From IMG/VR virus record IMGVR_UViG_3300046010_000754, positions 1-64,000 of that record: a DNA stretch of 64,000 bases. The stretch is one strand, 5' to 3'. The DNA comes from a virus. Positions 13,993 through 42,100 of this stretch are shown here, piece by piece (position 1 is the stretch's first letter; each line of letters begins with the position of its first letter). Under the pieces are notes generated by a model, which saw only the letters and a program-made list of their open reading frames with translations, was not told the origin of the DNA and made no database searches. A program made the position numbers and the translations under genes.

Positions 13993-14835
13993 GTGGCGTC
14001 GTCTATTGAATACGTAGGTTGGGGTTCTGGCCCATGGAGCCGTGGCTCGTGGGGGGAAAACCTGACCATCGTATCGGTAGATGGCGTCAGTGCAACGGGG
14101 GCCATTGGTACCGTCGTTGTCGCGGCTAATGCAGATGTCCCTGTTACCGGGGTTTCTGCTACTGGAGCGGTGGGTACAGTCACCGTTACCGGAACTGCAA
14201 TTGTCTACCCTTCTGGCTTACAAGCAACGGGCCAAGTAGGGTCTGTCTTAGTGCAGGCCAACGCCCTCGTGCAAGTCACAGGTGTAGCTGGCACAGCGCA
14301 GGTAGGAACTGTACAAATCTCTGGCACGGCCATAGTCCCTACGACTGGAGTCTCCGCTACCGGCGCAGTTGGTAGTGTCATTGCAACAGGTGGAGCTACG
14401 GCGTACCCCTTGGGGGTTGAGGCCACCGGCGCGGTTGGCAGCGTCGAAATTACGGGCACAGCAGAAGTATTCCCAACAGGCGTTGAAGGCGTCACCGAAG
14501 TTGGGAACGTAACGGTACTTCTGTCGATCATCGTCCCTGTCACCGGGGTATCCGCTACTGGTGAAGTAGGCACTGTGGTGGCCAGCGCGGGCGCTACCGT
14601 ACTTCCCACTGGGGTGTATGCAACTGGATACATTGGCCAAGTCAACGTCTGGGGCCAGATTGACGACAACCAAGACGCCGATTGGAACGGTATAAATGAT
14701 GGCCAGAGCGCTTTGTGGTCACAAGTTAGTGACGGACAGTCAGCAAACTGGCAAAATATCAACGATGCTCAGACACCCACATGGGGTGTTGTGAGTGATA
14801 CGCAAACTGCGGGCTGGCAACAAGTTGTCACATAA
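13993..14835 (+). CDS. Repetitive beta protein, probable fibre or tail accessory
   Basis: 280 aa from a GTG at 13993; no ribosome site is obvious. After an N-terminal VGWGSGPWSRGSWGE motif come about ten repeats of 19-20 residues with the pattern V-TGVSATGAVGTV-V-G-A (about 28-225), which could stack as a beta solenoid or fibre shaft. The last 60 residues carry a second repeat, W-x-x-I/V-x-D-x-Q-x-A (DNQDADWNGINDGQSALW). The Trp-Gly-Pro-Trp start also occurs in the nozzle protein (GWGAGPWGAGPWG). Confidence 0.7.
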   Translation: MASSIEYVGWGSGPWSRGSWGENLTIVSVDGVSATGAIGTVVVAANADVPVTGVSATGAVGTVTVTGTAIVYPSGLQATGQVGSVLVQANALVQVTGVAGTAQVGTVQISGTAIVPTTGVSATGAVGSVIATGGATAYPLGVEATGAVGSVEITGTAEVFPTGVEGVTEVGNVTVLLSIIVPVTGVSATGEVGTVVASAGATVLPTGVYATGYIGQVNVWGQIDDNQDADWNGINDGQSALWSQVSDGQSANWQNINDAQTPTWGVVSDTQTAGWQQVVT

Positions 14836-14847
14836 GAGGGTAAACAG

Positions 14848-17800
14848 ATGACCACACAATACACACCAACGCTGAAATTGGCGCTTCCCGTCACTGGGGA
14901 ACTCTCTGGTACATGGGGCGATATTGTCAACGACAACATCACCTCGATGATTGAGCAAGCCATCACTGGCCTTGCAACGATCAATACTTGGACTGCCAAC
15001 GCCCACACGTTGACCACGGCCAACGGTACGACTTCCGAGTCTCGCTGCGCCGTGCTCGTTGCGGCTACTGGTTCCGGGGGCTCGGCCATCACCGGCGCGG
15101 GTGAGATCATCTGCCCTGCCGCAGCCAAGCTCTACGTGGTGCAGAACACCACGTCTTTCGCTGTTACTCTGAAGACCTCTGCTGGTACAGGTGTGGCAGT
15201 CGCTGCTGGCAACACCGCCTTCTTGTTCTGCGACGGCACCAACGTCAACGCTTGCGTGACCACCATCATTGATGGCCGAGTCACCGGCAACCTGACAGTC
15301 GATGGCAACGCCACGATCAACGGCAACACCACATTGGGTAACGCGACAAGCGACACCGTGACTGTGACTGCACGTGTGGCCTCCAACGTGCTGCCTTCCG
15401 CTGACAACACCTACGACTTGGGTTCCGCTGCAAACGCATGGAAAGACCTGTACATCGACGGTACTGCAACCATTGCAACGCTGAACGTCACCACAATCGA
15501 CACCACAAACCTTGAAGTAACCAACATCAAGGCCAAGGATGGCACAGCCTCGATCACCATTGCTGATTCGACAGGCGCTGTCTCCTTTGCCAACAACGTA
15601 ACCCTTGGCGATGCCACTACCGACACTGTGACGGTGAACGGGTATATGGGGGTGGGTGGTGGTGGAAATTCGGGTCGTGGTATTCAGGTAGTTAGTACGG
15701 CGCTAACTGGTGGAGATCAATTCGGCGTTTATTCCAATGTTACAGCGAGTTCTTCGGCCACCACTGCGCTCAGATTGTTTCAATCTCTTCCAAAAACAGC
15801 GGTTGCAGCTTTTACTTGCTCAAACATCTACGGTTTTTCAGCCGAGGATGCGTCATTGGGTGCGGGTTCTTCCGTTACCAATCTTGTTGGCGTGCAAATT
15901 GCTGACCAAACCCAAGGCACAAACAACTACGGCATTCGCTCTTTGGTTTCCAGCGGCACGAACAAATGGAACATCTATGCCAGCGGTACAGCGGCGAACT
16001 ACTTTGCTGGCAACGTGGGTATTGCAACAACCGACCCAGCAACTTACGGTGTAGATGGCTCAGAGAATCTTGTTATTGGGCAAGCTGCGGGCAATGCTGG
16101 TTTGACAATCAGCAGCTTCAACACAAGCACTGGCACGGTTGCATTTTCTGATGTTATCAATGCTACGGTGGGCCGGGGTTATGTTACGTACAACCACAGC
16201 GGCGACTCTATGGCATTTGGCACGTTAGGTGCTGAGCGCATGCGTATCGACTCTTCCGGCAACTTGCTGCTCGGTACCAGCACAAGCTACACCTCTACGA
16301 CCACCGCTGGTGGCATGGCGCTCGTTGGGTATGGGGTTTATCCGTACACTACTCAGACGGGTGCAGCAAACTCAACTGCCCTATCATCTCTTACTGCCGT
16401 ACCTACAATTGCCGCAACGGGCTCAACGAGCATCACTCTATCAGCGGGGCAGTTTTCGCCTGCATTGTCAAACGATGGGACGGGTGGAAGCAACACAGTT
16501 TCCTTACTGGGGATTAGCTCCAATCCAGTTATTACGTCGAGCGGATCGACCGCACGGGTGTCCCTAACCGGAGTTCAAGGGATTGCAAACCGAGGCAATG
16601 CGGCTGACACATCAACTAACGCGTCAAACGCCCTTACTGGGGGTACGTTCGGCGTAACACACGGAACTTCGTTACCAACCACTGCGGTGTCTGGGACTGC
16701 TGTTGCTCTTACTGGCGCTGTTACCAACGCCGCTGGCACAATGACCGCAGCAACTGCTGTTCGGGCAGCGTTTTCTCTTGGTAGCCTCTCGACCTTCAAC
16801 ACCAATAGCACACCCACCGCTATTGGGTTCGAGTTATCTTCATTTACTGTTGGCGCACCAACGGCTGTAGGAAACGCCACGGTTACCAACGGCTACGGCA
16901 TCAAGCTGGCAGGCCCAGTTGTCGGTGTCACTGGCACGATGACCAACTACTACGCCTTCCGCGCCGACGCTCCTACGGTCTCGGGCACCCTGACCAACCG
17001 CTACGGCATCTGGATGGATGACTCTCAGTCCACAAACTATTTTGCTGGCAACGTGGGTATTGGGACGACTACGCCTGCTGCAAAGCTGGATGTAACTGAT
17101 AATGCCGTTGTTTTGGGGTATTTCCGTGGCTCGGGAGGCTCGGCAAACGACAAGAGACTGACTTTTACCACTGGTGGCGATAGAGTGATTCTTGATGCTG
17201 CCACTAACTCAACTGGCGCTGCCACGGCTTTGGCGTTTACTACTGGCGGCACAGAAAGAATGCGCCTCTCCGCCGCTGGCGGCTTGTCCATCGGCACCAC
17301 AACAGACCCCGGCGCTGGTGGCCTCATCACCACAGGCAACGTAACCCTTGGCGATGCTACGACCGACACTGTGACAGTGAACGGGTACATGGGCGTGGGT
17401 GGTGCTGGGTCAACCAACATAGCGCTTAAAATTACCAACTCGGCACTTACGTCTACGTCGCAATATGGCGTTGCCTCGCAACTTACAGGCAGCACCGCAG
17501 GCACTTCAGACTTAATTGCGTTCCTGTCTTTGCCTGCAACGGCGGCATCCGCATATACGGTCACCAATCTTGTCGGCTTCCAAGCACTCAACCCAACTTT
17601 GGGTGCGGGTTCAGCCATCACCAACCAGTACGGCGTATTTATTGCCGACCAGACACGGGCCACAAACAACTACGGCATCACCTCCGCAGTCTCCAGCGGC
17701 ACGAACAAGTGGAACATCTACGCCAGCGGTACGGCGCAGAACTACTTTGCTGGCAACGTGGGTATTGGGACGACTACGCCTGCCAACCAGCTAACTGTTT

Positions 17801-19746: not shown

Positions 19747-20361
19747 ATGAGTGACGAGAAAGCCCTTGGCGTATTGGATCGGGTTCTATCGTATGTAGAT
19801 TCCCCATTCAAGCTGATCGCTATTGTGATCATGGCAATCGTCACCTTTGTGGGCTATCTGTTTTGGCAAAACCAAGCGTTTCTGCTGGCTGCTTACCAAG
19901 AGCAAAAAAGAATGCCCACCATCCACGAAGAACGTGTGGATGATGCAGCGTCGGTACTGTTCAAGCAAACCGACGCCAAGTTCGTAGCCATCTTTAAAGT
20001 CAACCCCATTCTTGGCACCCGTGTGTTGCACCGCCTGTACACCAAGGACGGACGCAGCAAAGAACTTGAAGGCATAGATGTCGGCCTGTTTACATCTAAC
20101 CACGCGAACAACAATGATGTCGTTAAGCTCATGGCTGGTGACATTCCTTGCAGCCAGTATTTGCGCCCTCAGAGTGAGTTGGGAATTTGGTACATAGCGC
20201 AAGGCGCTAACTATACCTGTCGTATATCCGTGCCCCCTGACCGCAGCCGATTCATTGGTCAGATTACCGCAGGGTGGGCACAGCAGCCTGACAACATGGA
20301 GCACATCATTTCAATGATGGAGATCGCAGCGACCATATTGGTCAAGAAAGGTGGAGCATGA
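19747..20361 (+). CDS. Membrane-anchored protein heading the lysis cassette
   Basis: 204 aa. One membrane segment at about residues 22-40 (LIAIVIMAIVTFVGYLFW) is followed by a 160-residue soluble domain that resembles a GAF-like alpha/beta fold (FVAIFKVNPILGTRVLHRLY; SRFIGQITAGW). I infer it sits in the inner membrane with the large domain on the periplasmic or cytoplasmic side. It overlaps the holin by four bases (ATGA), so a lysis-timing role such as an antiholin is possible but unproven. ATG 19747 was preferred over 19654, which lies within the previous gene. Confidence 0.6.
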   Translation: MSDEKALGVLDRVLSYVDSPFKLIAIVIMAIVTFVGYLFWQNQAFLLAAYQEQKRMPTIHEERVDDAASVLFKQTDAKFVAIFKVNPILGTRVLHRLYTKDGRSKELEGIDVGLFTSNHANNNDVVKLMAGDIPCSQYLRPQSELGIWYIAQGANYTCRISVPPDRSRFIGQITAGWAQQPDNMEHIISMMEIAATILVKKGGA

Positions 20362-21292: not shown

Positions 21293-23395
21293 ATGCCACT
21301 AAAGAAGCTACTGCTCAAGCCCGGTGTAAACCGTGAGAACACACGGTATACGAACGAAGGGGGCTGGTACGAGAGCGAGAAGATTCGCTTTCGTCAAGGC
21401 ACGCCTGAAAAGATCGGCGGGTGGGAGCGTATTTCTTCGGCCACGTTCTTGGGCGTTTGCCGTTCCCTGTGGAACTGGGTGACCCTTGGCGGCATCAACC
21501 TGATTGGCGTGGGCACCAACCTCAAGTTCTACCTTGAAGCTGGCGGTATCTACAACGACATCACCCCCTTCCGCGATCAGGTCACATTGACCAACCCGTT
21601 TGAGACTTTTAACGGCTCGCCGATTGTTGAGGTGACTGACGCCAACGGCGGATACATTGACGGCGACTTCGTGACGTTCTACGGCGCAACCGCTGTGGGG
21701 GGCTTGACCATCTTCGGCCAATACGAGATCACAGTCACGGGCACCAACACGTACACGATTACAGCAAGCTCCAACGCTTCGTCGGATGCAACGGGTGGCG
21801 GCACGGTGTACGCGCTCTATCAGATCAACGTCGGCCCTGCGTATGTGGTGCCGCTTGTGGGCTGGGGTGCTGGCCCTTGGGGTGCTGGCCCTTGGGGGGT
21901 TGGCCAATCGTCTACGGACGCCATCCGTTTGTGGAGCCAACAGAACTACGGCGAGGACTTGATCTTCGGCCCCCGAGAAGGCCCAATTTACTACTGGGAT
22001 GCCACGTCTGGCTACACCCCCATCACGTTCGCCGCAACCGTGGCCAACCCCACGGTGATTACTGCCGCTGCCGAATACGCTGAAGGCACGCCCTTGCGCT
22101 TTGCGCCTGACTCTGGAGCCACGCTGCCCGTGGGCATCACCCCCGGCGAGTTGTACTATGTGCGCAACCCCTCGGGCTCCTCGTTCAACATCTCGCTGAC
22201 TCCTGCGGGGGCGCTCATCCAAGTAACCGTTGCGGCTGTGGGCACATGCCGCATCCTGTCGAACGCATACTTGCTCAGCGATTTTGGTGGGGCCACGGAC
22301 GTACCTGAGCATCAAAACTACTTGCTGGTGTCTGACATCAGCCGGTTTGTGTTTGCGTTCGGCTGCAACGACTACGGCACGTCTACTGTTGACCCGATGT
22401 TGATTCGCTGGTCTGATCAAGAAGACCCCTACAACTGGACACCCGCATCGACCAACCAAGCAGGTTTCCTGCGCCTGTCTCGCGGCTCTGAGATTGTTAC
22501 CGCCACGCAGTCTCGTCAGGAGGTGTTGGTGTGGACTGACGCATCGCTGTATTCACTCCAGTACGTGGGTGCACCGATTGTCTGGGGTGCTCAGCTTGTT
22601 GGCGAGAACATCTCCATCGTGGGCCAGAACGCTGTAGCGTATGCCAACGGCGTGTCCTACTGGATGGGCAAAGACAAGTTCTACAAATACGATGGTCGCT
22701 CACAGACATTGAACTGCGACTTGCGCCGCTACGTGTTCTCGGACATCAACACTGCCCAGTACGCACAGGTGGTGGCTGGCACCAACGAGGGGTTCAACGA
22801 AATTTGGTGGTTTTACTGTTCTGCTGGGTCAGACGTAATCGACAAGTATGTGATCTTCAACTACGCCGAGAACGTCTGGTACTACGGCAACATGGCCCGC
22901 ACCGCATGGCTGGATTCCGGCCTGCGCAACTTTCCGCTGGCGGCTACGTATAACAGCAACCTCGTAAACCATGAACAAGGTCTGGACGACAACGCCACGG
23001 CAACCACACTGCCAATCGAGTCGTGGATCATTTCCTCACAGTTTGACTTGGACGATGGTCACAACTTCATGTTCGTATGGCGCGTGCTGCCTGACATCAC
23101 GTTCGAGGGCTCTACCGCTGATGCGCCAAGCGCCACGATGTACCTGCTGCCATTGAAAAACTCTGGCTCTGGGTACTCGGTCAACAAAGCCACCAACGCC
23201 GACCACTCGGTGGCCAACGAGAGTTTTGCCAACATCACGCGAATCGCTGCGCTGCCAGTGGAAGAATATACGGGCCAGATTTTCACTCGGGTGCGTGGTC
23301 GCCAGATGTCAATCAAAGTCGAGTCCACCGGGTTGGGCGTGAACTGGCAATTGGGCGCACCTCGTATTGACATGCGTGCAGACGGTCGCAGGTAA
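21293..23395 (+). CDS. Tail nozzle / hub protein (P22 gp10-like)
   Basis: 700 aa with the opening LLKPGVNRENTRYTNEGGWY and IRFRQGTPEKIGGWERISSA, a signature I recall for podovirus nozzle proteins that form the tube beneath the connector rings. Most of the rest is beta-propeller-like (SVDPMLIRWSDQEDPYNWTP type blades: IRWSDQEDPYNW, RLSRGSEIVTATQSRQE). Includes a GWGAGPWGAGPWGVG insert at about 190-205 that echoes the 13993 protein. Its presence is the best single argument for a short non-contractile tail. Confidence 0.82.
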   Translation: MPLKKLLLKPGVNRENTRYTNEGGWYESEKIRFRQGTPEKIGGWERISSATFLGVCRSLWNWVTLGGINLIGVGTNLKFYLEAGGIYNDITPFRDQVTLTNPFETFNGSPIVEVTDANGGYIDGDFVTFYGATAVGGLTIFGQYEITVTGTNTYTITASSNASSDATGGGTVYALYQINVGPAYVVPLVGWGAGPWGAGPWGVGQSSTDAIRLWSQQNYGEDLIFGPREGPIYYWDATSGYTPITFAATVANPTVITAAAEYAEGTPLRFAPDSGATLPVGITPGELYYVRNPSGSSFNISLTPAGALIQVTVAAVGTCRILSNAYLLSDFGGATDVPEHQNYLLVSDISRFVFAFGCNDYGTSTVDPMLIRWSDQEDPYNWTPASTNQAGFLRLSRGSEIVTATQSRQEVLVWTDASLYSLQYVGAPIVWGAQLVGENISIVGQNAVAYANGVSYWMGKDKFYKYDGRSQTLNCDLRRYVFSDINTAQYAQVVAGTNEGFNEIWWFYCSAGSDVIDKYVIFNYAENVWYYGNMARTAWLDSGLRNFPLAATYNSNLVNHEQGLDDNATATTLPIESWIISSQFDLDDGHNFMFVWRVLPDITFEGSTADAPSATMYLLPLKNSGSGYSVNKATNADHSVANESFANITRIAALPVEEYTGQIFTRVRGRQMSIKVESTGLGVNWQLGAPRIDMRADGRR

Positions 23396-24052: not shown

Positions 24053-24088
24053 CAACGCACCGCTTGGCGTTGATTCGCGCTGCGCGGT

Positions 24089-24109
24089 GAGGGATACTAC
24101 GTGTCCCTC
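24089..24109 (+). terminator. Hairpin ahead of the ACP gene, possible weak terminator
   Basis: GAGGGATA, loop CTACG, TGTCCCTC: an 8-bp stem with one T-G pair, followed by only TTT. A second small inverted repeat, CAACGC/GCGTTG, lies at 24053-24071. The pair separates the tail genes from the ACP gene by 74 bases, the largest gap in this part of the operon. Confidence 0.4.
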
Positions 24110-24126
24110 TTTACCAAGGTGCGAAC

Positions 24127-24408
24127 ATGAATTTTCTTGAACTTTTTAATGGCGTGGTAGACCTCGCCAAGCCTGTCTCTGCCGCGCAGAGTCACGCCGC
24201 ATCCATGCAAGATCAGTTGGCTGATCTTAAATTGGACAGCCTCGACACTATCATGCTGGCCATGTACCTCGGGGAAATCTACGGTATCGAAGAAGACACG
24301 ATGCGGGAAATGGAGGCCACCACGGTCACCGATTTGCAAGCCTTTTTGGAAGCGCACAAAACGCACACTCCAACTGATCTTGAAGCTGAACTGGCGAGGG
24401 TCAAATGA
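24127..24408 (+). CDS. Acyl carrier protein
   Basis: 93 aa. The motif LDSLDTIMLAMYLGEIYGIE (residues 36-55) is the helix II signature of carrier proteins; Ser38 in D-S-L is the expected attachment site for 4'-phosphopantetheine, added by a host transferase. Helix III and IV follow (EATTVTDLQAFLEAHK). The 30-residue N-terminal part is longer and less acidic than bacterial AcpP. It overlaps the ketosynthase gene by four bases (ATGA), so the two proteins are likely made together and the ketosynthase probably acts on an acyl chain carried here. AGGTG precedes the ATG. Confidence 0.88.
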   Translation: MNFLELFNGVVDLAKPVSAAQSHAASMQDQLADLKLDSLDTIMLAMYLGEIYGIEEDTMREMEATTVTDLQAFLEAHKTHTPTDLEAELARVK

Positions 24409-25511
24409 TTTACCTCACACACCACCGCAACGCCGGAACAACCCACACGGATGTCATTGAAGACCATCCCTACCCACAACGCATCCACTGGTTCCCCGAG
24501 ACCTACAACAACGTCAAGTCGGGGCTGGTCTACCCAGCGCACGTGCTGGCCAACAAAGTCATCGACCCCAAGCTGATCGACTACGTAAGGGAAAACCCTA
24601 CATCTGGCAAGACTGGGTTCATCTTGGCCGCAGGCTCCCAAGGCTGGGCAGGCATCCGGGGCAGGCACGACCAGAAAGACGAAGGGCGCTTGCACTTCAA
24701 ACTCAAGCTGCCGCTGGTCACCCTGACCAACATCTACGCAGGGCGGGTTGCCTCCATGTTTGGCCCCATGGACTACGTGTCCACAGACGCCAGCGCATGC
24801 GCGTCCAGCATCAAGGTCTTGCTGGAGGTGCAGAACCTCATGACCAACTTCGGGTTTACCCGTATGATCGTGCTGGGTGTCGAGGACGCCGTAAACAACT
24901 CGACGTTGGAGTTCTTTGGCCAAGCCAAAGCCAGCCTGATGTACAAGGACGAGGCCACCATCAAGCCATCGGCGTTTGACTCCGTGAACGCAGGGTTCAA
25001 CATTGGGCAAGGTGCAGGTCTGGCCATCTTCGAGACCGAACCGGCTGTCAATCCTGCCGCCAAAATGCTGGGCACATACACCGCCGCCGAGGACTTTGCC
25101 AACCCGTTGGGCCAGCGCCCTGACGGTCAGGGGTACCAAAAGGCCATTGAGGGTGCGCTGTACATGGCCAAAATCCCTGCCAGCGATGTCAAAATCGTCA
25201 AGACGCACGGTACAGGCACCCAGACCAACAACACGGCTGAGAAGGCTGCTATCCTTGCCCAGTTCCCCGACTTTGTGGCTACATCCTACAAGCAGCGTGT
25301 GGGGCACACCCTTGCCGCCAGCGGACTGATGGAGACCAGCATGCTCCTGAACAACCTCAAGATCGGTGTCATTCCCGGCATCGTCAACCGCACTGAGCAC
25401 GATGATGTGTTTCTGTCCTATGACGCACCGGCCCGTGAGGGGGTGATCGCAGTTCTGGCCGCAGGCATGGGCAACGTGTTCTCAGCGGCGCTGTTTGATC
25501 CTTGTGCGTAA
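24405..25511 (+). CDS. Beta-ketoacyl-ACP synthase (thiolase fold)
   Basis: 368 aa, somewhat shorter than FabF (about 410). This enzyme family joins an acyl chain to malonyl-ACP. The active residues appear complete: Cys132 in STDASACASS, His268 in KTHGTGT, Lys296 and His301 in KQRVGHTLAASG. The closing glycine loop is AAGMGNVFSAAL rather than the usual GFGGTN. The N-terminal 60 residues (QRIHWFPETYNNVKSGLVYP) are unlike FabF, so this is a divergent branch. No malonyltransferase, reductase or dehydratase is seen in the window; those would have to come from the host. Confidence 0.9.
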   Translation: MIYLTHHRNAGTTHTDVIEDHPYPQRIHWFPETYNNVKSGLVYPAHVLANKVIDPKLIDYVRENPTSGKTGFILAAGSQGWAGIRGRHDQKDEGRLHFKLKLPLVTLTNIYAGRVASMFGPMDYVSTDASACASSIKVLLEVQNLMTNFGFTRMIVLGVEDAVNNSTLEFFGQAKASLMYKDEATIKPSAFDSVNAGFNIGQGAGLAIFETEPAVNPAAKMLGTYTAAEDFANPLGQRPDGQGYQKAIEGALYMAKIPASDVKIVKTHGTGTQTNNTAEKAAILAQFPDFVATSYKQRVGHTLAASGLMETSMLLNNLKIGVIPGIVNRTEHDDVFLSYDAPAREGVIAVLAAGMGNVFSAALFDPCA

Positions 25512-25557: not shown

Positions 25558-26022
25558 ATGGCAACAATGGTAGACAGCAAGAAGGAGCAGCTATCCATAC
25601 CTGAGATCATCACTCGGGCGGCATATAACGACCCAGTTGAGGGCGTGCCTCCGTACGCTGCTATCTTGTCGATCATCAAAGAAGGCACTATGCCGAACAC
25701 GGAAGTCACGCAGTATGGCAACACCGTGTTTATCACCCACTTCAGTAAAGACCGTGACTTAGCGGTTAACCGTGCGCTGAGCGTCGATTCCGCTAAAAAT
25801 TTCCTCACCAACGGGGAAGAATACTTCCGTGACTTGGTGCGTGGGGGCACAAAAAAATACGTTGCGCAATTTGACCGGCCCTCGTTTGCCACAGCGTTTA
25901 TGGCGTTTAAGCGCAACCCCATCACGACCAAAATGAAAATGTGGATTGTGCAAACCCCCAAAGGACACACGCAGGTTCGTATTGCTTTGGATGGCGAACT
26001 TATTGAGGGGCGTAGAAAATGA
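25558..26022 (+). CDS. Unknown protein upstream of the giant internal protein
   Basis: 154 aa, AAGGCGGA before the ATG, overlapping the next gene by four bases. The sequence looks like a small alpha/beta protein (YGNTVFITHFSKDRDLAVNR; KMWIVQTPKGHTQVRIALDG) without Cys and without a membrane segment. Not recognised. Coupling to the 2144-aa gene suggests it may be a chaperone or partner for that virion protein. Confidence 0.65.
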   Translation: MATMVDSKKEQLSIPEIITRAAYNDPVEGVPPYAAILSIIKEGTMPNTEVTQYGNTVFITHFSKDRDLAVNRALSVDSAKNFLTNGEEYFRDLVRGGTKKYVAQFDRPSFATAFMAFKRNPITTKMKMWIVQTPKGHTQVRIALDGELIEGRRK

Positions 26023-29000
26023 GTTTTGTTGTTGACGCTATTGAAGATGTAGGCGACGCTGTTGGTGACGCATTAGACTGGGTGATTGACGAGGTTATTG
26101 ACCCCGTGATGACCACGGTCAGCAACGTCATTGAGTCCGCGCTCGACAACCCCGTTAAGACCATTGCACAGATCGCTGCGATTGCCACTCAGCAGTATTG
26201 GGCACTCCCACTCATTGAAGGTGCAGACGTTGCCGCAAAGGGTGGCGATCTCGGGGATGTGCTGGAAGCCACGGCCAAAGCCTACGTTATGCAAGAAGTG
26301 GGCTCGTATGTTGGTAAAGCGGCGGGCTCCTACGCAGGTACCGCAGCTACCGAAGCTGGCGCATCTGCGGCTTCTGCCAAGATTGCCGAAAACGTGGTGG
26401 GCGCAGCCGCAGGCTCTGCTGCCGTTGCAGTAGTCTCGGGGCAAGACCCAGTAAAGGCGTTCATTACAGGGGGAGTAGGCGCAGCAATGCCTGCTGTTCT
26501 TGGCCAAGTCAGCGGGTTCAAAGAACTACCCGGAAGCGCCCAACGTGTAATCTCCTCTGCGGTGTCTGCGCAGTTGTCGGGAGGCAACGTCACCGCTGCC
26601 GTAATCGGGTCTACTATTGCCGCCTCGGGCATTGTTACCGATGCGCTGAAGTCTTTTGACCCAGACGGTACAAAACTTGACAACACGCAACGCGCAATTC
26701 TGACTGATGTACTCATGGGCACTGCTACTGCCGCAATAACTGGTGGTAGCCCCTCAAACGTCATTAAATCGGCAATGATGAAAGCTGGCTCCAAGGCGCT
26801 TGGAGATATGGCCACAAACGCGTTTAAGACCGCTACTGCCGAAGCAACCACCTCATACAACGCCGCATCCAAAGTGGCGGACAAGTTGGATGCAAACCAA
26901 GCCGCCCAAGCTACCGCAGCCAAAAACTACAACGATACAGCGGCGGCGTTGCAGAAAAAGATTGACGAGCAAAACAGACTTCAGACTGCGTACAACAATG
27001 CTGTTGCCGCACACAACGCAAACCCAAGCGAAGCTACTGCTAACGCCGCCAACGCTGCGATTGCAACTTACAACTCGTATGTAACAAACCTCAACAAAGA
27101 GTACAACGACACGTTCAAACCCGCGCTGGACAAATACGGCGGGGAACTTGATTCGCTCAAGCAAGCGGGTGCGGTGCTTACCGGCGACTACGAAAAGGCT
27201 ATCAAGGCGTTCTCAACAAAGACTGACACTATCTCGGACGTACTTGACCCAATCTACCGCACAAGTAATCGTGCGTTCGTAGAGGCGATGGATGACAAGT
27301 TTGACGCTGAGCAGTACCGCAAACTAAACGGGCTGGGTGCCGATGTTGACCCCTACGAGCACTTCTTGTCCAAAGGACAATTTGAAGGTGCGCCAACAAA
27401 CAACAAGTCTGCTGAGCCGATCATTGCAGCAGAGCGTACTCGTCTTGTTACTCAGGCACTGGAAAGTAAGGGCGTGACGTTGGCTACGGCTGACCCCGCT
27501 GTGGTCTCGAAGATTCTGGACAACATCGACGCAAAGTACGGCAACAACGTCGGTGCAATGAAGGCGGCGTCCATCCAAGACGTGATCAGCGGAAACACCT
27601 CGTCAATCAACACGCTGGTTGCAGATCAGCAGAACGGTGTATTCCGAGTCGAGGTTCGCGGTGGCAGCTACGGGGAGTGGAACAAGCCCCCGACAGACCG
27701 GTTCACTGCACCTGCGGGTACCAAGCTGGCCTCGTTTGAGGCGTTCAACAACGGCACTGCCTCGCTGGTCTACGACACCAAGGGTAACCCAGTGTGGATT
27801 GAAAACGACCCCCGCACTGCGGTTAAGTCGTGGAATCCAGCCCAAGGCGACACAACTCCAACAGTCACGATTGTTGGCAAGAGGCCAACTGAGCAAGAGA
27901 AGATTCTTGCCATGTCGGAACTGACAGGTGCAGATGCCGTCAACGGTGTGGTCTCGCAAGGCATGATCAATGCCGCCAAGACCCTCGTGGGCTGGGCCAA
28001 AGACACCGGGAACTCTACTGTCATCAACACAGCGGCCAACGTCATCAAAGCAGGCGGCGGGTTCATCGAGTCCATCAACGGCATCTCTGCACTGTTTGGT
28101 GCGGTGCCGAAAGACACGGCCATGGGCAAGTTTGCCAACGCGCTGAACAACATAGGTAAAGCCGGGAATACCGCGCAGTACCAAGCTGCAATCAAAGATG
28201 TCAAGGACATGATCGGCAACGCCAAGGGCGTAGGCGGCACGCTGGCGGCTATCTACAAAGGCGCCACAACGTACCCGCTGGAGTTTGCTGCTGAGTTCAT
28301 TGGTGTCGAAGGCTTCCAAGAGATTGCACCGTTCCTAATCGGTGGTGCAGCAACCACTGCTGCCAAAGGTTTGGCGCTGGCCCGAGGAGTCGGCCAACAA
28401 CTGGCGACCCGTATTGGCAATGTGGCGGGTATGACCTCTGCAATCTCCACTGACGTGATCGAGTCAGCCGGTGGCGCTGCCGCAGGCGCGTTCGACGAAG
28501 CGTACAAACTTGCTATCAAGAACGGCAAGAGCGAAGCTGACGCCACAAAGATTGCGCTGGACATCGCACAGAAATCCGGCATCGTCTCGGGTTTGGTGAC
28601 CGCTGCCTCTATGGGGCTGGGCGGGGGTGCACTGGAGAAGGCAATCTTCAACGGCAAAGTCTCGGGTACCGGCTTCGGGGATGCGCTGAACAAGCTGGGC
28701 CAAGCTGCCAAGACCGGCACCCAGATCACCATCAAAGAAGGTGTATCGGAAGCTGGCGAGGAAGGTATCACCCAAGCGTTCTTGGAAGGTCAACTCTACA
28801 AGCTCGACCCGAACCGTGACGTAGCTGCAAACATCACTGCCGCCGCTGCCTTTGGCGCAATCGCAGGTGGCCCTATTGCTGGCACCGCGTACGCTGGCTC
28901 ACAAGCAGGTGATGTGCTCTCCAACGCCATGATGGGCAACCCACAGATCGCCAGTGTTTTGGAAACCAACAAGGGCAACCCTGCCGCTGCTGATGCAGCA

Positions 29001-32000
29001 CTGGCCAATCTTGGTATTACCGATAACACGATCAAGTCCAACTTGATGAACGTCGTTGACGATACCAACTACACAAGTAGTCAAGAAGCTGCTGACACGT
29101 TGGCCAAGCGCAGCGATTATTCGTTCACCGGTGACGACGTGACTGCACTGACGGGCAAAGGCACCGATCTCACATTGGCCAGCCGTGTTGAGGCATACGT
29201 TGACCCCCGAGTGTTTGACCTTGCCGAAGTCAAAGCCGCCGCCGCTGCCGAAGGCTATACGCTCACAGACGCAGAAGCCGCCAAGTTGGTTGGCCAAAAG
29301 GATGAAGCTGCGGCCACCTCCGCCGCACGTGCCGAGTTTGACCCCAAGGCGACCAACTACGACGAAGCCAAGTCATTCTTTACCGACAAGGGCTACACAC
29401 CCTCTGCGGACGAGATCAAGCAGTTTGTCGGTAGCAAAGCTGAGTCCACACAGACCAAGGCTGTTGCAGACTACGTGAACCCTCGTCAGGTAACAACTGA
29501 GGAGGCAAAGAAGTACCTCACTGATCTGGGGTACAAACCAACCGATGCAGAAGTCAAACGGTTCGTTGGGCAAGTCAATGAAGCCGAGCAAGCCAAGGCC
29601 ATCGGCACTTACGTTGACCCCCGCATGGTGGACGAGGGTGAGGTCAAGGCTGCATACGAATCACTGGGGCTGAAGAAGCCTACCGCCGATGACCTCAAGA
29701 AGTTGATGGGGCAGTACGATGAGACTGGGCTGACCGCCAAGGCTACTGAGTACCTGCCAACCGCACGGTTCAACTCCATCATGGCGCAGCTTGACGAGAT
29801 GAGTTCTGGCGGTGTCAGCCAAGAAGCAAGGGACGCAATTGATCTGGTGCGTAAAGACCTCACGAAGTCGATTGCCGATACGGGGTTGGAGGTTGCCAAG
29901 GTTGCACTGAAGGTTGATAACGCCAAGGCCGATCTGGAAAAGGCCATCACCACTGCAACCAAAGGCTTGGCCACGCCTGCGGACGTGGATGCGGCTATCG
30001 CCAAAATTCAGTTCCCTGCTGGCCTGTCCAAAGAGGATGTCTCGTCTGCAATCAAGACTTACATGGAGGCCAACCCCGGCCTTAGCTTGGAAGACGTTGC
30101 GACAAAGATCAGTGAAGCAACAAAGGGGCTGGCCACTTCTGAGGGCGTTAAGACCGAGATAGCCGCGGCTATCAAGGGGCTCGCCACAACCAAAGACATT
30201 GAGACTGCGATCTCAAACATCAAGTTCCCTGCGGGGATCACCAAAGAAGATGTTGCCGCTGAGATCAAGACTTACATGGAGGCCAACCCCGGCCTATCCC
30301 TCGCGGATGTTGCATCGAAGATTGGGGATGCGACAAAAGGGCTTGCCACTTCTGAAGGTGTCAAGACCGAAATAGCTGCGGCAGTCAAAGGACTCGCAAC
30401 CACTCAGGACATTAAAGACGCCATCGCTGGGATTGAGTTCCCTGCGGGGCTGTCTAAGGATGATGTCTCGTCTGCAATCAAAATCTACATGGAGGCCAAC
30501 CCCGGCCTGTCTATCGACGAAGTTGCAACGAAGATCGGTGATGCAACCAAAGGACTGGCTACTCCAGAGCAGGTAAAGACCGCAATCGAAACTGCGTTGA
30601 CAGGGGTTGCCACAACCGCCGAAGTCAAAACTGCAATCTCAGACGCGCTCAAAACCACTGAAGGTCGGTTCGACACAATCGACAAAGCCATCCAAGACTT
30701 GCGTGACGCAGGGCTCACGGCAGAAGACGTTAGGGCTACGGTTGATAAGATCGTAGGCAGTGCTGGTACAGACAAAACTGCGGCCACGGGCATCTACGCG
30801 CACATCGACGGGGTGAACACCAAGATCGACAACATCAATACGTTGATCGGTGCACCTGCCGAGGGCGATACGGCTGCGACTGGCCTGTACGCCAAGATTG
30901 CCGAGAACGAAGCCGCTGGCATGAAGCGCGAGGAAGCAACGCAAAAAGCGATTGCCGATGTTGCCGCTGACCTTGGCACCACCAAAGCCGACTTGCTCAA
31001 GTCGTTGGGCACCACCGAAGGCAACCTCACTCGCAAGATTGAGGGGCTGGAGACTGCACTGACGACCACCGAGAAGAACATTCTCGACAGAGTGAAAGAG
31101 TATGAGAAGGCTGGGCTTACCCGCGACGAGGCTACTCAGAAAGCCATCGAGACTGTTGCCGCAGACCTTGGCACTACCAAGGCAGACTTGCTCACTGCGC
31201 TCGGTACAACGGAGGCAAACCTCACCAAGTCAATGACTGACCTGAGCACTCAGGTGTCTGACTTGAGCACCAAACTCGGGGACGTAGAGACCAACATCTT
31301 GTCGAAGATGGCGGACTACGAAAAAGCTGGCATCGGTCGAGATGAGGCGCTGTCCAAAGCGATTGACGATGTTGCCGCAGACCTCGGCACCACCAAAGCA
31401 GACCTGTTGAGCCAGATTGGTACGACAGAAGCCACCCTGAAAGAAGAAGTCGGGCTGGTCGAAACAAACCTTGGTGCCAAGATTGCTGACGCCAAGGATG
31501 AAGTCCTCAAGGAACTGGGGCTGGCCAAGACTGGCCTGAGCGAAGAAATCTCAGCGTCCGAAGGAAGAACGGCTACCAAGATTGGTGATGTCGAGACCAA
31601 CATCTTGGCAAAGATGGCCAACTACGAAAAGGCTGGCATTGGGCGCGACGAAGCATTGAGTAGGGCAATCGACGACGTGTCTGCCGAACTTGGCACCACA
31701 CGCACTGACATCCTTACACAGATCGGCAAGACTGAGGCGAACCTCAAAGCTGATCTGGCCAGCACCAAGACTGAACTGAAGACTGACATCGGCACCGCCA
31801 AACAGGAAGTGCTGGACAGGGCGGCTGAGTACGAGAAGGCGGGTATTGCACGCGACCAAGCACTTCAGTTGGCGCAGGCAGACATGGCCAAGACCTTGGG
31901 TCAAGGCACACAGCAAGCCACGCAGTCTGATCTGGACGCAGTGATCAACCTGCTGCAAACCCAAGGTGCGTACGATGCGCAGTACGACTACAACGGCGAC

Positions 32001-32453
32001 AGGGTAATCGACCAAAACGATAAGGTTGCGATTGAGAATTACCTCAACCGTTCACCCGATACTACTGCGCCGTTTACCCCTGCTGCTGGCTCCAAGTGGG
32101 CACCCACGGGCGTGTTCAAGACTGTGGCGGACGAGGCCGAGGCCACCCGTCAAGCGCAAGCTGCGGAAGCTGAGAAGACCCGCCAAGCTGCCACTCGTAA
32201 CGCCGCTAACCAAGCACGCTTGGGCAACATCAACTCCCTGACCAGCATGCTGGCGCAGGCAGGCGACACCGGAGGCCAACAAGTCACGGTAAAAGCTGCC
32301 GATCCTGCCAAGATTGGGTACATTTATGACTGGAACAGCATTTTCGCTAACCCATCACAGGAAAAGATGTTTGCGTCCCCTTTCGCACAGGGCGGCATGG
32401 TGGACGGCTCTGATGATGTAAACGAAGAATTGCTCAAGATATTGAAAGGCTGA
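26019..32453 (+). CDS. Giant internal virion protein (2144 aa), repeat-rich
   Basis: Probably packed in the capsid and ejected with DNA; inferred from size, place and composition. The first 280 residues are Ala/Gly-rich and partly hydrophobic (AEIVVGAAAGSAAVAVVSG-like), then come helical segments, a phrase YRKLNGLGADVDPYEHFLSK near 430, and a second hydrophobic part near 770-960. Residues about 1060-1240 hold four repeats of about 45 aa with YVDPR and FVGQ; about 1310-1525 hold exact-period 71-aa repeats; about 1640-1930 hold coiled units with LGTTKADLL. An EF-hand/dockerin-like loop DYNGDRVIDQND lies near 1990. The end carries FAQGGMVDGSDD. No lytic or polymerase motif seen. Confidence 0.7.
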   Translation: MSFVVDAIEDVGDAVGDALDWVIDEVIDPVMTTVSNVIESALDNPVKTIAQIAAIATQQYWALPLIEGADVAAKGGDLGDVLEATAKAYVMQEVGSYVGKAAGSYAGTAATEAGASAASAKIAENVVGAAAGSAAVAVVSGQDPVKAFITGGVGAAMPAVLGQVSGFKELPGSAQRVISSAVSAQLSGGNVTAAVIGSTIAASGIVTDALKSFDPDGTKLDNTQRAILTDVLMGTATAAITGGSPSNVIKSAMMKAGSKALGDMATNAFKTATAEATTSYNAASKVADKLDANQAAQATAAKNYNDTAAALQKKIDEQNRLQTAYNNAVAAHNANPSEATANAANAAIATYNSYVTNLNKEYNDTFKPALDKYGGELDSLKQAGAVLTGDYEKAIKAFSTKTDTISDVLDPIYRTSNRAFVEAMDDKFDAEQYRKLNGLGADVDPYEHFLSKGQFEGAPTNNKSAEPIIAAERTRLVTQALESKGVTLATADPAVVSKILDNIDAKYGNNVGAMKAASIQDVISGNTSSINTLVADQQNGVFRVEVRGGSYGEWNKPPTDRFTAPAGTKLASFEAFNNGTASLVYDTKGNPVWIENDPRTAVKSWNPAQGDTTPTVTIVGKRPTEQEKILAMSELTGADAVNGVVSQGMINAAKTLVGWAKDTGNSTVINTAANVIKAGGGFIESINGISALFGAVPKDTAMGKFANALNNIGKAGNTAQYQAAIKDVKDMIGNAKGVGGTLAAIYKGATTYPLEFAAEFIGVEGFQEIAPFLIGGAATTAAKGLALARGVGQQLATRIGNVAGMTSAISTDVIESAGGAAAGAFDEAYKLAIKNGKSEADATKIALDIAQKSGIVSGLVTAASMGLGGGALEKAIFNGKVSGTGFGDALNKLGQAAKTGTQITIKEGVSEAGEEGITQAFLEGQLYKLDPNRDVAANITAAAAFGAIAGGPIAGTAYAGSQAGDVLSNAMMGNPQIASVLETNKGNPAAADAALANLGITDNTIKSNLMNVVDDTNYTSSQEAADTLAKRSDYSFTGDDVTALTGKGTDLTLASRVEAYVDPRVFDLAEVKAAAAAEGYTLTDAEAAKLVGQKDEAAATSAARAEFDPKATNYDEAKSFFTDKGYTPSADEIKQFVGSKAESTQTKAVADYVNPRQVTTEEAKKYLTDLGYKPTDAEVKRFVGQVNEAEQAKAIGTYVDPRMVDEGEVKAAYESLGLKKPTADDLKKLMGQYDETGLTAKATEYLPTARFNSIMAQLDEMSSGGVSQEARDAIDLVRKDLTKSIADTGLEVAKVALKVDNAKADLEKAITTATKGLATPADVDAAIAKIQFPAGLSKEDVSSAIKTYMEANPGLSLEDVATKISEATKGLATSEGVKTEIAAAIKGLATTKDIETAISNIKFPAGITKEDVAAEIKTYMEANPGLSLADVASKIGDATKGLATSEGVKTEIAAAVKGLATTQDIKDAIAGIEFPAGLSKDDVSSAIKIYMEANPGLSIDEVATKIGDATKGLATPEQVKTAIETALTGVATTAEVKTAISDALKTTEGRFDTIDKAIQDLRDAGLTAEDVRATVDKIVGSAGTDKTAATGIYAHIDGVNTKIDNINTLIGAPAEGDTAATGLYAKIAENEAAGMKREEATQKAIADVAADLGTTKADLLKSLGTTEGNLTRKIEGLETALTTTEKNILDRVKEYEKAGLTRDEATQKAIETVAADLGTTKADLLTALGTTEANLTKSMTDLSTQVSDLSTKLGDVETNILSKMADYEKAGIGRDEALSKAIDDVAADLGTTKADLLSQIGTTEATLKEEVGLVETNLGAKIADAKDEVLKELGLAKTGLSEEISASEGRTATKIGDVETNILAKMANYEKAGIGRDEALSRAIDDVSAELGTTRTDILTQIGKTEANLKADLASTKTELKTDIGTAKQEVLDRAAEYEKAGIARDQALQLAQADMAKTLGQGTQQATQSDLDAVINLLQTQGAYDAQYDYNGDRVIDQNDKVAIENYLNRSPDTTAPFTPAAGSKWAPTGVFKTVADEAEATRQAQAAEAEKTRQAATRNAANQARLGNINSLTSMLAQAGDTGGQQVTVKAADPAKIGYIYDWNSIFANPSQEKMFASPFAQGGMVDGSDDVNEELLKILKG
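29958..30600 (+). repeat. Three tandem 213-bp units encoding 71-aa repeats
   Basis: The phrase ACATGGAGGCCAACCCCGGC recurs at 30060, 30273 and 30486, exactly 213 bp apart. Each unit encodes the order TKGLAT, FPAG, DV, then YMEANPGLS and DVA-KI. Wobble positions differ between units, so the repeats are kept by selection at the protein level and are not fresh duplications. Confidence 0.88.
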
Positions 32454-36172: not shown

Positions 36173-39100
36173 ATGGACTTTCAGACCGCGCTGGCCGCGA
36201 TGCGTAACGCAGAAGCGGCGGGTAACTTTGAGGATGCCAAAACACTGGCGCAACTTGCACAGCGCCTCCGAAATAGTTCCCCCGAAGAATCTGATCTTGA
36301 GTCCCGCCTGCAACAGTTACGCGCCGAACGTGAGGAACTGCTCAAGCCAAAACCTACTGTCGGTGGGTATGCCAAAGAAGCCTTCAAGGGGTTGGTACCC
36401 GGCGCGATTGGTCTGGCCGAAACCGCAGGAACTGGCATCGCATCCATGCTGCCCGACAGCACGGAAAAGGCCGCACGCGAGAAAATCAAAGAGCTTGCCG
36501 GTCTCGCCAAGAAGCCGTTTGAAGCCGCACCGGGGTATGAAGATTCGGTCGTGCGTAAGCTGAGCGAAGGCTTGGGCTCAACACTGCCGTTCTTTGCCGC
36601 TGGCCCGTTTGGTCTGGCTGGCCGTGTAGCCGCTGGTGGTCTGGGCGTTGCCGCTGGCGCTGGTGAAGCACGTGAGTCCGCTGAAGCCAAGGGTGCTACT
36701 GCTGACGAACGCCGCGCCGCCACCCTGCTGGGTGCACCTACTGGTCTGCTCGACTTGCTGGCACCACAACTTGGCCCACTCAAGAAAGTCTTGGGCAAAG
36801 AACTTAGCTCAGTTCAGTCCTTGATGGGCACCGCCGTAGCACGTGGTGGTATTGAAGGCGCAACGGAAGCTGCGCAGAAGATTGCACAGAACCTGATTGC
36901 CAAGGGCGTGTACGACCCAAGCCAAGAGATTCTCGTTGGCTCAGGAGAAGAAGGTGCCTATGGCGCTGGAGTCGGTGCACTGGCCAGCTTGATTGTTGAC
37001 ATGACCATTGGCCGCAAGGCTCGTCGTGCATCGCTGGGTCTGGACAAAGAAACCCCCGAAACCGATACCAAACCCAAGACTCCCGAACAACAACTGTTGG
37101 GGTACACCGCCGAACCATTCACCCCTGTGGCGTTGCCTGACGGCTCTGTCATCACGTCCAAAGCCGAATACGACGAGTACGTTAAGTCCAAAGAAGGCAC
37201 CGCACGTCAGCGTGAGGAAGACCTCCGCACCTCCGACCCATTGGCTGCGCTGTCGTCATTTGATCGTACCCTTGCACGCCGTGGCAAAGAAGCCGCGCTG
37301 GAAGAAACATTCAAGTCTCAAGAGCCTGACTTGCTCGGCGAGCTTACCCCCGCACGGGAGCGGGTCGAAGAACAGCCCAAAGCCGAGGAAGACCCCTTTG
37401 CCGTAAAGCGGGACGACAAGACCCGCGACATGATCGACGAGTTGGAAACCCAACAAGTTGAGGAGTTGTACGCAAAGGACGAACGCGCTGCCGCTGAAAA
37501 AGAGCGCCTGAAGTTTGAGTCCGACCTTGCCGAACTGACTGGCAAGATGGAGCGTAAGCAGGAGAAAACATCTGAGGACAACCGCCTTCAGTTGCTGCTG
37601 CCGATTGTCGAGTCCAACGTCAAGAACATCCCCAAGGTGTTTGTCACAGAACTCAAGCGTGCAGGTTTTACCAACACCAACCTGACTGATCGTGAGCGCA
37701 ACCTCATCAACCGTGCCTACGATATTCGTCTGGCCGAGGAGCCCGTGGCTGAAGCCGAACAGGAGGTGCAAGCCACCGAGGGGCAGAAGAAAGAACTGCG
37801 TTCCATCGAGTCGTTGATCCCTGAAAAGAAGCCACAGCGTGCACAGGAGCAGATGGGTTTCCCCGGCATGGGCAAGCCGAAGGGTGCCGCACCCCAAGCC
37901 TTCTCCGAGGAGGAACTCGCGTCTCAGGAAAAGCCATTCACTGGCCGCTCTGACGAAGCCCCTCGCTCGTACACATCCACAGCACCGTTCCAAACTGTGC
38001 TGACACCGGAAGTGCTGACCGCCGCTGGCCTGCCCAAGCAGTCGGGCTTCTACAAGCAGTTGCTGAACATGGACATGGCCGACACCGCTCAACAGCCGGT
38101 CGTCGCAAACATCTTCGGGCGTATCCGCACCAACCCCAACCTGTCTGCACCTACCAAGGATGCCGTAGAGAAACTGGCGATGCAGGCGTTTGGCGGTTTG
38201 GCCAAGCAAGGTGACATGTTCGTACCCGCCAAGCCAACCAAGGCTGCTAAGGAGGACAAGAAAGATGCGACTGCAACAAAACCCGCAGCCGGAAAATCCG
38301 CTGAACGAGGACGTGATAAGGACGCAGGAGATGTCGCTGGAGGAACTGGAACTCGCGCTGAAGATCGCAAAGAGAGCGGTCGAAAGGACGAGCGCACTGG
38401 AGCCCCTGCTGATACCAAGCGAACTGAAGCACCTAAGTCCGCTGGACTGGGAGATCGTGGGAAACCTGCTGGTGACGCTGGAAGTCGAGCAAGCGTGGAG
38501 TCGGGTGCACTGAAGAAGACCGAACCCAAGACCGAGGCTAAGACAAAATCTACCGTTGATGTGGCGTGGGGGATGCTCCAACGTGCGGAAGCAGCCCAGC
38601 GCGAAGCAGACGAAGCCGCTAAGGGTAAACCCGAAGCCAAGACTGAAGCCAAGGGCAAAGCCAAGACCGAAGCTAAGCCCAAACCTAATGCAAGTTTTGG
38701 TGCATACGGCCAAGTGATGGAAGCAGAGAGTAAATCCGATGCGCTCGACTATCTGGCATACGACATGTACGTGGCCATGTTCGAGAAGTTCAAGCTGCTC
38801 ACCCGTGTCAGCACGCTCAATGACATCAACGCACAACTGCGCGAAGGCAAACTCCCCGGTGAAGTTGCGTTCGGTCGTGAAGGTACAACGTCGATTGTCC
38901 CGCTGAGCGGTGGCAAGTACGCCAAGACGTTCTACGAATCCCTGTCTGCCGCCGACAAGAAAGCGCTGGCCCGAAAGATGGCAGACTACTTTGGCAAGTC
39001 TGAAACTGAAGTCCGCCGTGGAATCGAAAGCGCCAACGCTGCCCAAGCACTGTCCCGCGCCAACGTCGAGCAGTTCAAAGGCGATGAGTTGGAACTCGCA

Positions 39101-42100
39101 CGTGACGCTGTTGTACTGTCCCTGCCCTTGCACCCTGCCATCCGTAAGGCGCTGAAGGCTGGTGATCTGCGCGGTGCTCTGACCATGCTGGGCTCGCAGA
39201 ACCTTGGCCGTGCATCCGAAGTCGCCAAGAAATTGGCTGGCGCAATCGGCAAGACCAAGATCGAGTTGGAGCCCATGCTCCTCAACGCCGAGGACATTCC
39301 GGTCGCTGGCCTGTACGACCCCAAAACTGACACCATCAAGCTGGACGCGCAGGAAGGTATGAACCTTCACGTGCTATTACATGAAGCGGTACATGCTGCT
39401 ACATCACATGTCATAGATAACAAGTCACACCCTGTGACTAAACAACTCACCGAGCTTTACAACAACGTCAAAGACTCGCTGGACACAGCGTACGGCGCAC
39501 AGTCGTTGGACGAGTTCGTCGCCGAAGCATTCAGCAATCCTGAGTTCCAGCAGAAGTTGGCGGCAATCAACCCCAAGGGTGAGGCGATCACTGCATGGCA
39601 ACGCTTCACGCACGCCATCCGCAACTTTGTACGTTCCCTCATGGGGAAGGATACCAAGGGCATGGGCTCCGCACTCGACGCTTCGGACTCCATGATCGAC
39701 GCCATCTTGTCGCCTGCCCCTGAGTCTCGCGGCGCTGGCTCGCTGTACTCGGCGGCTCTGTTGGGTAAGGGTGCCGAAGTATTCAAAGGCATAGACAACC
39801 GAATCCTGTCCATGCCGGTAATGAACAACGACACGATTGCACGGGTGTACGACATGGTGCGTAACGCACCGCAGACTGTCAAGAAAATCATCTTGCGCAG
39901 CCTGCCGCTGAACGTGCTGACCGAGGTCGCATCCAAAGATGTTCCCATGGCATCCAAGCTCAACGAGTTGGAGCGGCTGTGGAACGGTGCAAAAGACAAG
40001 CGCATGCGTGAGACCAACGCCACCATGTCGCGCATCCAGAACTGGGTGAAGGGTAACCCTGAGAAAGAAGTTATCCTGAACAACGTCATCGCCACCAGCA
40101 CGCTGGAGCAGGTTGACCCCTCCAAGTCCCGCGCCGACTACAAGGGCAAGCAGTCCGAGAGCGGTGCAGACAAGCAGAAGATTTGGGATGAGTTGCAAGC
40201 CGAGTGGAGCAAGCTCGGCCCTGAAGGTCAAAGCGTCTACAAGCAGATGCGCGACACGTACAAGAAAACGTACGAGGACTTGCTCGATCTGTTGATGAAG
40301 CGCATCGACGACTCCGTTGAGAACAAGGAAGATGCCAAGAAACTGCGCACTGAGATTTATCAGCGCCTTGCCACCAAGGGCAAGATCGAGCCTTACTTCC
40401 CCCTGACACGTACAGGTGACTTCCGTCTGTCGTACGACCTCAAGGGCGAGCACTACGTCGAGCACTACGAGACATCAGTTGCGCGTGAGCGTGCGATCAA
40501 AGAGTTGGAAACCGCTGGCGGGGCCAAGAATGTGCAACGGTTCAAGGGCGGCTCCAAGCGCACCTACAAGGATGCACCTTCCACCTCGTTCGTGAACTCT
40601 ATCTTGCGAACACTTGAAGCCAACAAAGTCGATCCAGAAGTGACCGATGAGATCATGCGTACGTTCTTGTCAACACTGCCTGAGTCGTCATTCGCTCAAG
40701 CGTTCCGCGCTCGTAAGAACACCCCCGGCTTTAGCTTCAACGCAACGGGCGCGTTCTACTCACGCTCCATGAGTATGGCCCATCAGTTGCCAAACATGGA
40801 GTACAGCGCCAAGGCGTACAAACTGCGCGACGAGATCGACGAGTACGCCAAGAAGAAGGGCGACGAGCAGACCCGCCTCGTGGCCGACGAGTTGAACAGC
40901 CACATCCAAACGCTGGTCAGCCCCAACATTGCGCCGTGGTCTAAGGGCGTGACCTCGTTGGTATTCGGCTGGACGCTGGGCCTCAACGTGTCGTCCGCTG
41001 TGGTCAACATGTCACAGGTGCCGTTGGTGATGTTGCCTTACCTTGGGGGTAAGTACACCTACCCCGAAACCATGAAGGCCATTGGCTTCGCTACCAAGGT
41101 GTTCATGGGCAGTGGCCGCAAGCGCATGGTCAAGATGACGGTGCCCACCGCTGACGGTAAAGAAACCATCGAACAAACAGGTGGCTTCTCGCTGGACAAC
41201 TACGACTTTGATGCCAAGGGCACCCCGCCAGAAATCAAACGCCTCAAAGAGTTGTCAGAGATCGCCGACAAGTACGGTTTGCTCGACCGCTCCATGACAA
41301 GCGACATGCTCGACATGAACGAGAAGGCGTCCCCGCTCGACCGAGTTAACGCATGGTCTGGGTTTATCTTCCACCACGGCGAGCGCATGAACCGCCAGAT
41401 TTCGCTCATCGCTTCCTACGAGCTTGAGCTTGGCCGCATGGCCAAGGAAGGCAAGAAAATTGATGCCGCCGCACGCACCGAAGCGGCCAAACGCGCCGTG
41501 GAGATTGCCGAGATCATGAACGGTGGTGCGTCCGCAAGTAGCGCACCTTTGCTGGCAAAGAACTCGCTGGGCAAGATCATGTTCATGTACAAGCGGTACG
41601 GTGTGACCATGTACTACATGATGTTCAAGACGGCCCGTGAAGCCATGAAGTCCGAAGACAAGAAAGTCCGCGATGCCGCCATGCGCCAGATCGCCGGTAT
41701 CTACGCATCCGCTGGCCTGATGGCTGGGGTGCAGGGTCTGCCGATGTTCGGTATCGTCGCCGCTGTCTACAACATGTTCAAGGACGACGACGAGGATGAC
41801 TTTGAAACCGCCGCACGTAAGTACCTCAAGGAAGGTATGTTCAACGGCGCGGTCAACTACTTCACTGGCACGGCTGTCGCCAACCGTATCGGCTTGTCCG
41901 ATCTGCTGATCAACAGCACGGGGTACAAAGAGCAGGACAACGCGATCTTGTCGTTCTTGCAACTCGTGGGTGGCCCAGCATACGGCGTAGCCGACCGACT
42001 GGTGCAGGGTGCCAAGCTGATCAGCGAAGGTGAGACTCTGCGTGGTCTGGAGCGCATGGCCCCCTCGGGTGCGGCCAACGCCATGAAGGGTATTCGGTTT

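Follow-up and report, generated by a model that had tools for sequence, protein, structure and literature searches.

To our knowledge, phage genes that act on host fatty-acid synthesis have mostly been described one at a time, as sporadic acquisitions from a host. A lone FabG is present in Aeromonas phage Gekk3-15 (PMC11372344), and fabF, fabG and fabZ have been reported in viromes (PMC10653327, PMC5704599); listings of fabF, fabG, fabZ and acpP as viral auxiliary metabolic genes (AMGs) also include PMC12783922. In roseobacter prophages, the set fabG-acpP-fabF has been reported as viral AMGs (PMC8224337). Since this is a bacterial chromosomal gene order, however, the roseobacter genes may be host flanks.

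A bacterial system in which an acyl carrier protein (ACP) and a ketosynthase (KS) work as a specialised pair is NodF/NodE of the rhizobia. On S. meliloti pSymA (L159), an ACP-like ORF at about 14632-14910 and a KS ORF at 14914-16122 are read as NodF and NodE, an identification made by homology and location because the record is unannotated here. NodF is usually assigned as the ACP and NodE as the KS, and the acyl acceptor of the system is known: the Nod factor, via NodA. In a nodE mutant of a related rhizobium, Nod factors lose their polyunsaturated acyl groups and those longer than C18 (PMC5080398, which swaps the names NodF and NodE).

An ACP-KS gene pair in a phage genome

The window analysed here is a stretch of 64,000 nt from IMG/VR virus record IMGVR_UViG_3300046010_000754, the whole of which comprises 65,909 bases. 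One strand carries the genes for terminase, portal, head, tail fibre, endolysin, a nozzle-like protein and giant presumed ejection proteins; the replication module lies on the opposite strand, and no tRNA genes were found in this phage. On the plus strand, an ORF with an ATG start at 24127-24408 encodes an ACP of 93 residues, and a second, also with an ATG start, at 24405-25511 encodes a KS of 368 residues. The stop of the ACP gene and the start of the KS gene share an ATGA (24405-24408), which couples the two. Both ORFs and their overlap are exactly as the initial annotation had described them.

All of the immediate neighbours are encoded on the same strand. Upstream, at 21293-23395, is the gene for the nozzle-like virion protein (phrog_3287, E 4.9e-62), a conserved neighbour that marks the upstream context. 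Downstream of the KS gene are c4 (25558-26022), which encodes a conserved protein of about 150 residues in virion-block loci, and the gene for a giant protein of 2144 residues (26019-32453; conserved neighbour cluster 0). The latter is presumed from its position to be an internal or ejection protein; a family search with it gave nothing informative. Farther downstream, the C-terminal third of a 2115-residue protein encoded at 36173-42520 resembles DarB-like antirestriction proteins (phrog_10089, E 1.2e-74), and this product is possibly an ejected anti-defence protein.

An intergenic region of 74 nt (24053-24126, plus strand) lies 5' of the ACP gene and contains a strong hairpin (-34.8 kcal/mol, z -5.1). 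This hairpin is common to near relatives only: L011 has a degraded stem, and L002 lacks the element. Thus, the gap and hairpin noted in the initial annotation are real, but they are lineage-specific; a conserved regulatory part is ruled out, and the hairpin lies outside the ACP-KS system.

The carrier protein

The window ACP scores 16.4 bits against Pfam PP-binding, below the gathering cut-off of 20.8, and 7 of 32 ACP relatives match this family at E 0.01 or better. A match to TIGR00517 (E 2.5e-5) is weak when taken alone. A 32-row profile of the phage ACPs retrieves ACPs in the PDB, and the AlphaFold (AF2) model (pLDDT 94.2) is an ACP-like helix bundle, for which the leading Foldseek matches are ACPs with probabilities up to 1.00 and a modest best E value of 1.3e-2. 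The phosphopantetheine site is Ser38, within LDSLD. The model places the start of helix II at this residue, so Ser38 is the serine of a DSL motif in the position proper to an ACP, and both it and Asp37 are invariant in all 220 relatives described below.

The ketosynthase

The fold of the second protein is that of the thiolase-like ketosynthases. The N and C families of Pfam ketoacyl-synt match at 42.4 and 64.6 bits (gathering cut-off 20.8), the closest PDB match is FabF (E 2.5e-19), and the AF2 model (pLDDT 91.7, pTM 0.92) has as its top Foldseek matches exclusively FabF-like proteins or KS domains, with TM values of 0.7-0.8 for FabF. Cys132, His268, Lys296, His301 and Glu310 are invariant in the 220 relatives. 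Thus, the initial annotation named the active residues (Ser38, Cys132, His268, Lys296 and His301) correctly, and loss of the Cys-His-His residues, which it had proposed to look for among relatives as evidence against function, is seen in none of the 220.

Other positions differ from those of FabF-type enzymes. The gate, which in FabF is GFGG, reads GMGN: Phe401 of FabF is replaced by Met in 219 of the 220 phage KSs (Met355 in the window KS), and Gly403 by Asn. The loop around FabF His269 contains an invariant Asn. An aromatic residue (Phe in 120 of 220, Trp in 97) aligns near FabF Leu111, which we take to be a pocket residue, although model confidence is low there. In addition, the phage KSs are about 45 residues shorter than FabF and FabB, chiefly in the N-terminal part.

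The window KS is found by NCBIfam fabF at E 5.6e-30, with 104 bits against an equivalog cut-off of 493.75. In the two trees that were built, a placement the initial annotation had recommended, the phage KSs form a single, long-stemmed clade (100/100) that excludes FabF, FabB, NodE and the PKS-type KSs. By neither the curated cut-off nor the tree does the window KS fall within the FabF/FabB class; the phage KSs are a family apart from all bacterial ketosynthases compared in this analysis. Because their gate and loop residues are not those of the FabF-type reference KSs, the reaction catalysed could be a different one from ordinary elongation. Still, its conserved residues suggest a catalytically competent, elongating-type ketosynthase that would condense acyl chains, a prediction that we favour, as part of the whole reading developed below, with a little over even confidence.

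Distribution, coupling and selection

A first scan yielded 19 viral loci with the pair. A profile scan then gave 504 candidate stretches, of which the best 80 of the 504 (at least 53% identity) were fetched, and further scans, followed by the removal of duplicates, brought the sample to 220 distinct full-length KS genes on viral contigs. In all 220, the ACP gene lies directly upstream of the KS gene, which is the arrangement of a NodF/NodE-type pair, and the 4-nt ATGA overlap is almost always the same. No KS without an ACP was found among the loci examined, that is, the 220 full-length KS relatives and the c4-anchored loci discussed later. A bacterial ACP-KS pair on Streptomyces plasmid NZ_CP108510.1 (L151, 2294-3768) has an equal 4-nt overlap and lies outside the phage clade.

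Both genes are under purifying selection. For the KS, dN/dS is 0.04-0.10 in pairs with well-measured synonymous change, and one near-identical pair gives 0.20 on the basis of very few changes; for the ACP, dN/dS is 0.04-0.23 in pairs with measurable synonymous change. ACP distances track KS distances (Mantel r 0.85, with 0 of 999 permutations), which is what joint inheritance of the two genes would give. The original argument that intact catalytic residues speak for function has therefore gained strength, in that the pair is a real ACP-KS pair under strong selection; its catalysis is predicted.

Ketosynthases are common in bacteria, and the initial annotation had cautioned that the stretch might be an assembly chimera with bacterial DNA; contamination of a phage contig by bacterial sequence was considered as well. 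However, hundreds of viral contigs have the same synteny, the 19 loci of the first scan are viral, and another IMG/VR contig (L008) encodes a KS identical to that of the window. Furthermore, 84,980 bacterial and archaeal species genomes contain one close KS relative. It sits on a Balneolaceae MAG contig that also carries terminase-like, portal and YqaJ-recombinase genes, so the relative belongs to a prophage or to a phage contig that was binned with the MAG. A chimera is thus so improbable that we treat it as excluded, and the separate KS clade, together with this near absence from cellular genomes, also argues against a recent capture from a host.

Related sequences are present in databases. 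KS UOF78413.1 of MW202545.1 (Caudoviricetes sp., Manatee Spring) and UniProt A0A6J7X0R1 ('FabB', uncultured Caudovirales phage) are each 54% identical to the window KS, and PHROG 35856, whose function is unannotated, contains the family. The other KS matches in phage records have 24-32% identity to the window KS; that of 'Acinetobacter phage MD-2021a', when read in detail, looks like a host-type fabB region. The KS gene of MW202545.1 (L021, 20001-21101) was deposited with a start at 20157, 52 codons downstream of the one used by the family, and the ACP is called hypothetical there. Although the record bears the title Siphoviridae, its gene block resembles that of these phages. A literature search, with coverage that excludes most subscription papers, found no description of the ACP-KS pair or of the KS clade. 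The earlier remark that no such phage system had been described therefore holds for papers on the pair or its KS family, but not for the sequences, which were already deposited, nor for fabF and acpP as such, which have been reported as viral AMGs.

Two gene contexts and natural losses

In 193 of the 220 cases, the pair is housed in the virion block, typically in the order nozzle gene, pair, c4 and giant ejection proteins, so the neighbourhood that was to be sought in other phage contigs is the usual one. The other 27 pairs belong to an unrelated block, a replication operon, where c4 is missing; here, a helicase gene is upstream and genes for DUF3310, exonuclease, a Gp2.5-like SSB, ribonucleotide reductase and DNA polymerase are downstream. 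Three replication-block phages (L105, L106 and L107) have a 160-residue ORF between the helicase and KS genes, adjoining or overlapping the ACP gene. Well-supported branches of the KS tree force at least two changes of context. Thus, context is not fixed, and the pair is portable between the two gene blocks.

Natural losses were found by a scan anchored on c4. Among 79 readable loci, 69 contain both genes, five contain the ACP gene without an intact KS gene, and five contain neither. The KS gene is missing, with the ACP gene present, in the close virion-block relatives L181, L196, L226 and L234. In L172 (3885-3990), next to an intact ACP gene, the start codon and first residues of the KS run on in frame into its C-terminal 30 or so residues, the scar of a KS deletion. 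Neither gene is present in L210, L211, L212, L216 and L225, although c4 and the other virion-block neighbours stay. Short contigs among these loci could include assembly faults, which are less likely in the 60-kb ones. Three 60-kb records that have no KS gene at the virion-block site have none elsewhere, which rules out a hidden second KS there. The ACP-only phages that were read keep the DSLD motif. From the KS-less and pair-less loci, and the lack of any ACP-less KS, it follows that the KS needs its ACP, that the ACP can outlast the KS, and that the phage is viable without either.

These results bear on the possibility that the pair makes an acyl group for a virion or ejected protein and so aids assembly or the ejection of DNA through the membrane. 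The position of the 193 pairs, between nozzle and ejection genes and beside c4, is what such a role would predict. A part of the virion, however, would be found always in the virion block and always retained, whereas 27 pairs are in a replication operon without c4, and phages lacking the KS or both genes have the same nozzle, c4 and ejection genes. Nor was an acyltransferase that could use the product recognised among the neighbours tested. By eye, c4 had seemed a candidate for a GNAT-type acyltransferase that completes the pathway, but it has no match in Pfam, PHROG or the PDB, and GNAT (PF00583) has none in nine phage records; c4 probably belongs with the virion/ejection genes and not with the ACP-KS pair. 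We consider virion acylation distinctly unlikely, and the virion-tied role or late timing suggested in the initial annotation is weakened accordingly. Instead, the pair is on genuine phage contigs and dispensable among relatives, as a phage auxiliary metabolic gene is, and the replication-operon copies and the relatives without the KS or both genes mark it as a portable accessory cassette and not a virion part.

The ACP-only phages, with their retained DSLD, also invite the idea of a decoy. Host ACP has many partners, and the pair might bind or titrate host synthases, AcpS, SpoT or MukB, thereby blocking host lipid growth or signalling. Yet the invariance of Cys-His-Lys-His in 220 KSs and the strong purifying selection argue for catalysis, and the KS never occurs without its ACP. 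A decoy is, in our judgement, improbable.

Predicted function

Searches for companion enzymes of the PPTase (PF01648), FabG (PF13561), FabD (PF00698) and FabA/Z (PF07977) types gave no match in nine phage records, that of the window included; control genomes gave the expected matches. Within these families and records, the pair is thus the only fatty-acid component, as initially noted, and if it works, it must use host enzymes. This supports the initial idea that it taps the host pathway.

We favour, somewhat more than not, the reading that the pair is a portable auxiliary metabolic cassette, predicted to be active and to plug into host type II fatty-acid synthesis in the manner of NodF/NodE. 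Given the invariant serine and the fold, host AcpS would load the ACP with phosphopantetheine, and host FabD would load malonyl. With its invariant active site, the KS would then take an acyl chain on Cys132 and condense it with the malonyl on its ACP, and the host reductases, given that no FabG-type match was found in the phages, would finish the cycle, in which the host enzymes are AcpS, FabD, FabG, FabZ and FabI. A private ACP, as in NodF/NodE, suggests that a particular acyl chain would be built on it for a dedicated use. Where the chain would go is the least certain part of this scheme. The envelope or membrane lipids of the infected host itself are the most probable destination, because a change in envelope lipids fits both gene contexts and a virion-only role does not.

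Several lines of evidence support the cassette: the strict coupling, the invariant sites, the purifying selection, the phage-only clade, the mobility from block to block, the lack of companion families, the confident KS and ACP models that match FabF and ACP structures, and the independent precedent of NodF/NodE. Other findings count against it. The five loci with an ACP and no intact KS are not called for by a simple pair; no acyltransferase to use the product was found; NodE is not a phylogenetic relative of the phage KS; and the gate and loops are changed (Met for Phe401, Asn for Gly403, Asn in the His269 loop).

These same changes would fit the production of a small molecule, short acyl or polyketide-like in kind (a signal, toxin or superinfection factor), in place of a membrane lipid, particularly if the aromatic residue near Leu111, a region of low model confidence, shortens the acyl pocket. 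No partner enzyme for tailoring or release was seen in the families tested, and we find this reading very doubtful. It is unlikely, more broadly, that the remodelled-gate KS and its private ACP make a product of no bacterial pathway, whether a dedicated metabolite of the phage (acyl or short polyketide) or an acyl modification of virion or host-envelope components, which would alter the outcome of infection. If they did, the phage would possess a minimal biosynthetic pathway of its own, for which the host alone supplies the remaining enzymes.

Together, the analyses confirm the initial observation and bear out its interpretation in part: a functional pair that taps the host is supported, and a virion-linked system is unlikely. 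Across hundreds of viral contigs, an old enzyme clade specific to phages has stayed intact together with its own ACP and has moved as a unit between gene blocks, which suggests a phage control of acyl-chain chemistry in infected cells that is apparently unstudied. The small size of the pair, the exact predictions for its active sites (Ser38 and Cys132) and the natural knockouts make it directly testable.

Comparison with known systems

The phage KS shares with FabF and FabB the fold, the Cys-His-Lys-His-Glu active site and the HGT.T and GH motifs. It differs from them in its separate, long-stemmed clade, its shorter chain, its GMGN gate and its score under the fabF cut-off. MW202545.1 and A0A6J7X0R1 belong to the same KS family, and the neighbours in MW202545.1 are the same as those in the window; both are database entries with automatic-looking names ('3-oxoacyl-ACP synthase' and 'FabB'). 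The viral AMGs reported previously are also fatty-acid genes on sequence called viral, but they include neither a phage-specific KS clade nor a strict ACP-KS pair.

As in the phage pair, the ACP gene of NodF/NodE immediately precedes the gene for a FabF-type KS, and NodE has Met at the position of the FabF gate Phe. NodF/NodE are bacterial plasmid genes, however, and NodE clusters with bacterial KSs outside the phage clade, so the Met gate of the two enzymes is a resemblance and not kinship. NodF/NodE perform a specialised elongation with host enzymes (see PMC5080398), and it is this division of labour that we infer for the phage pair.
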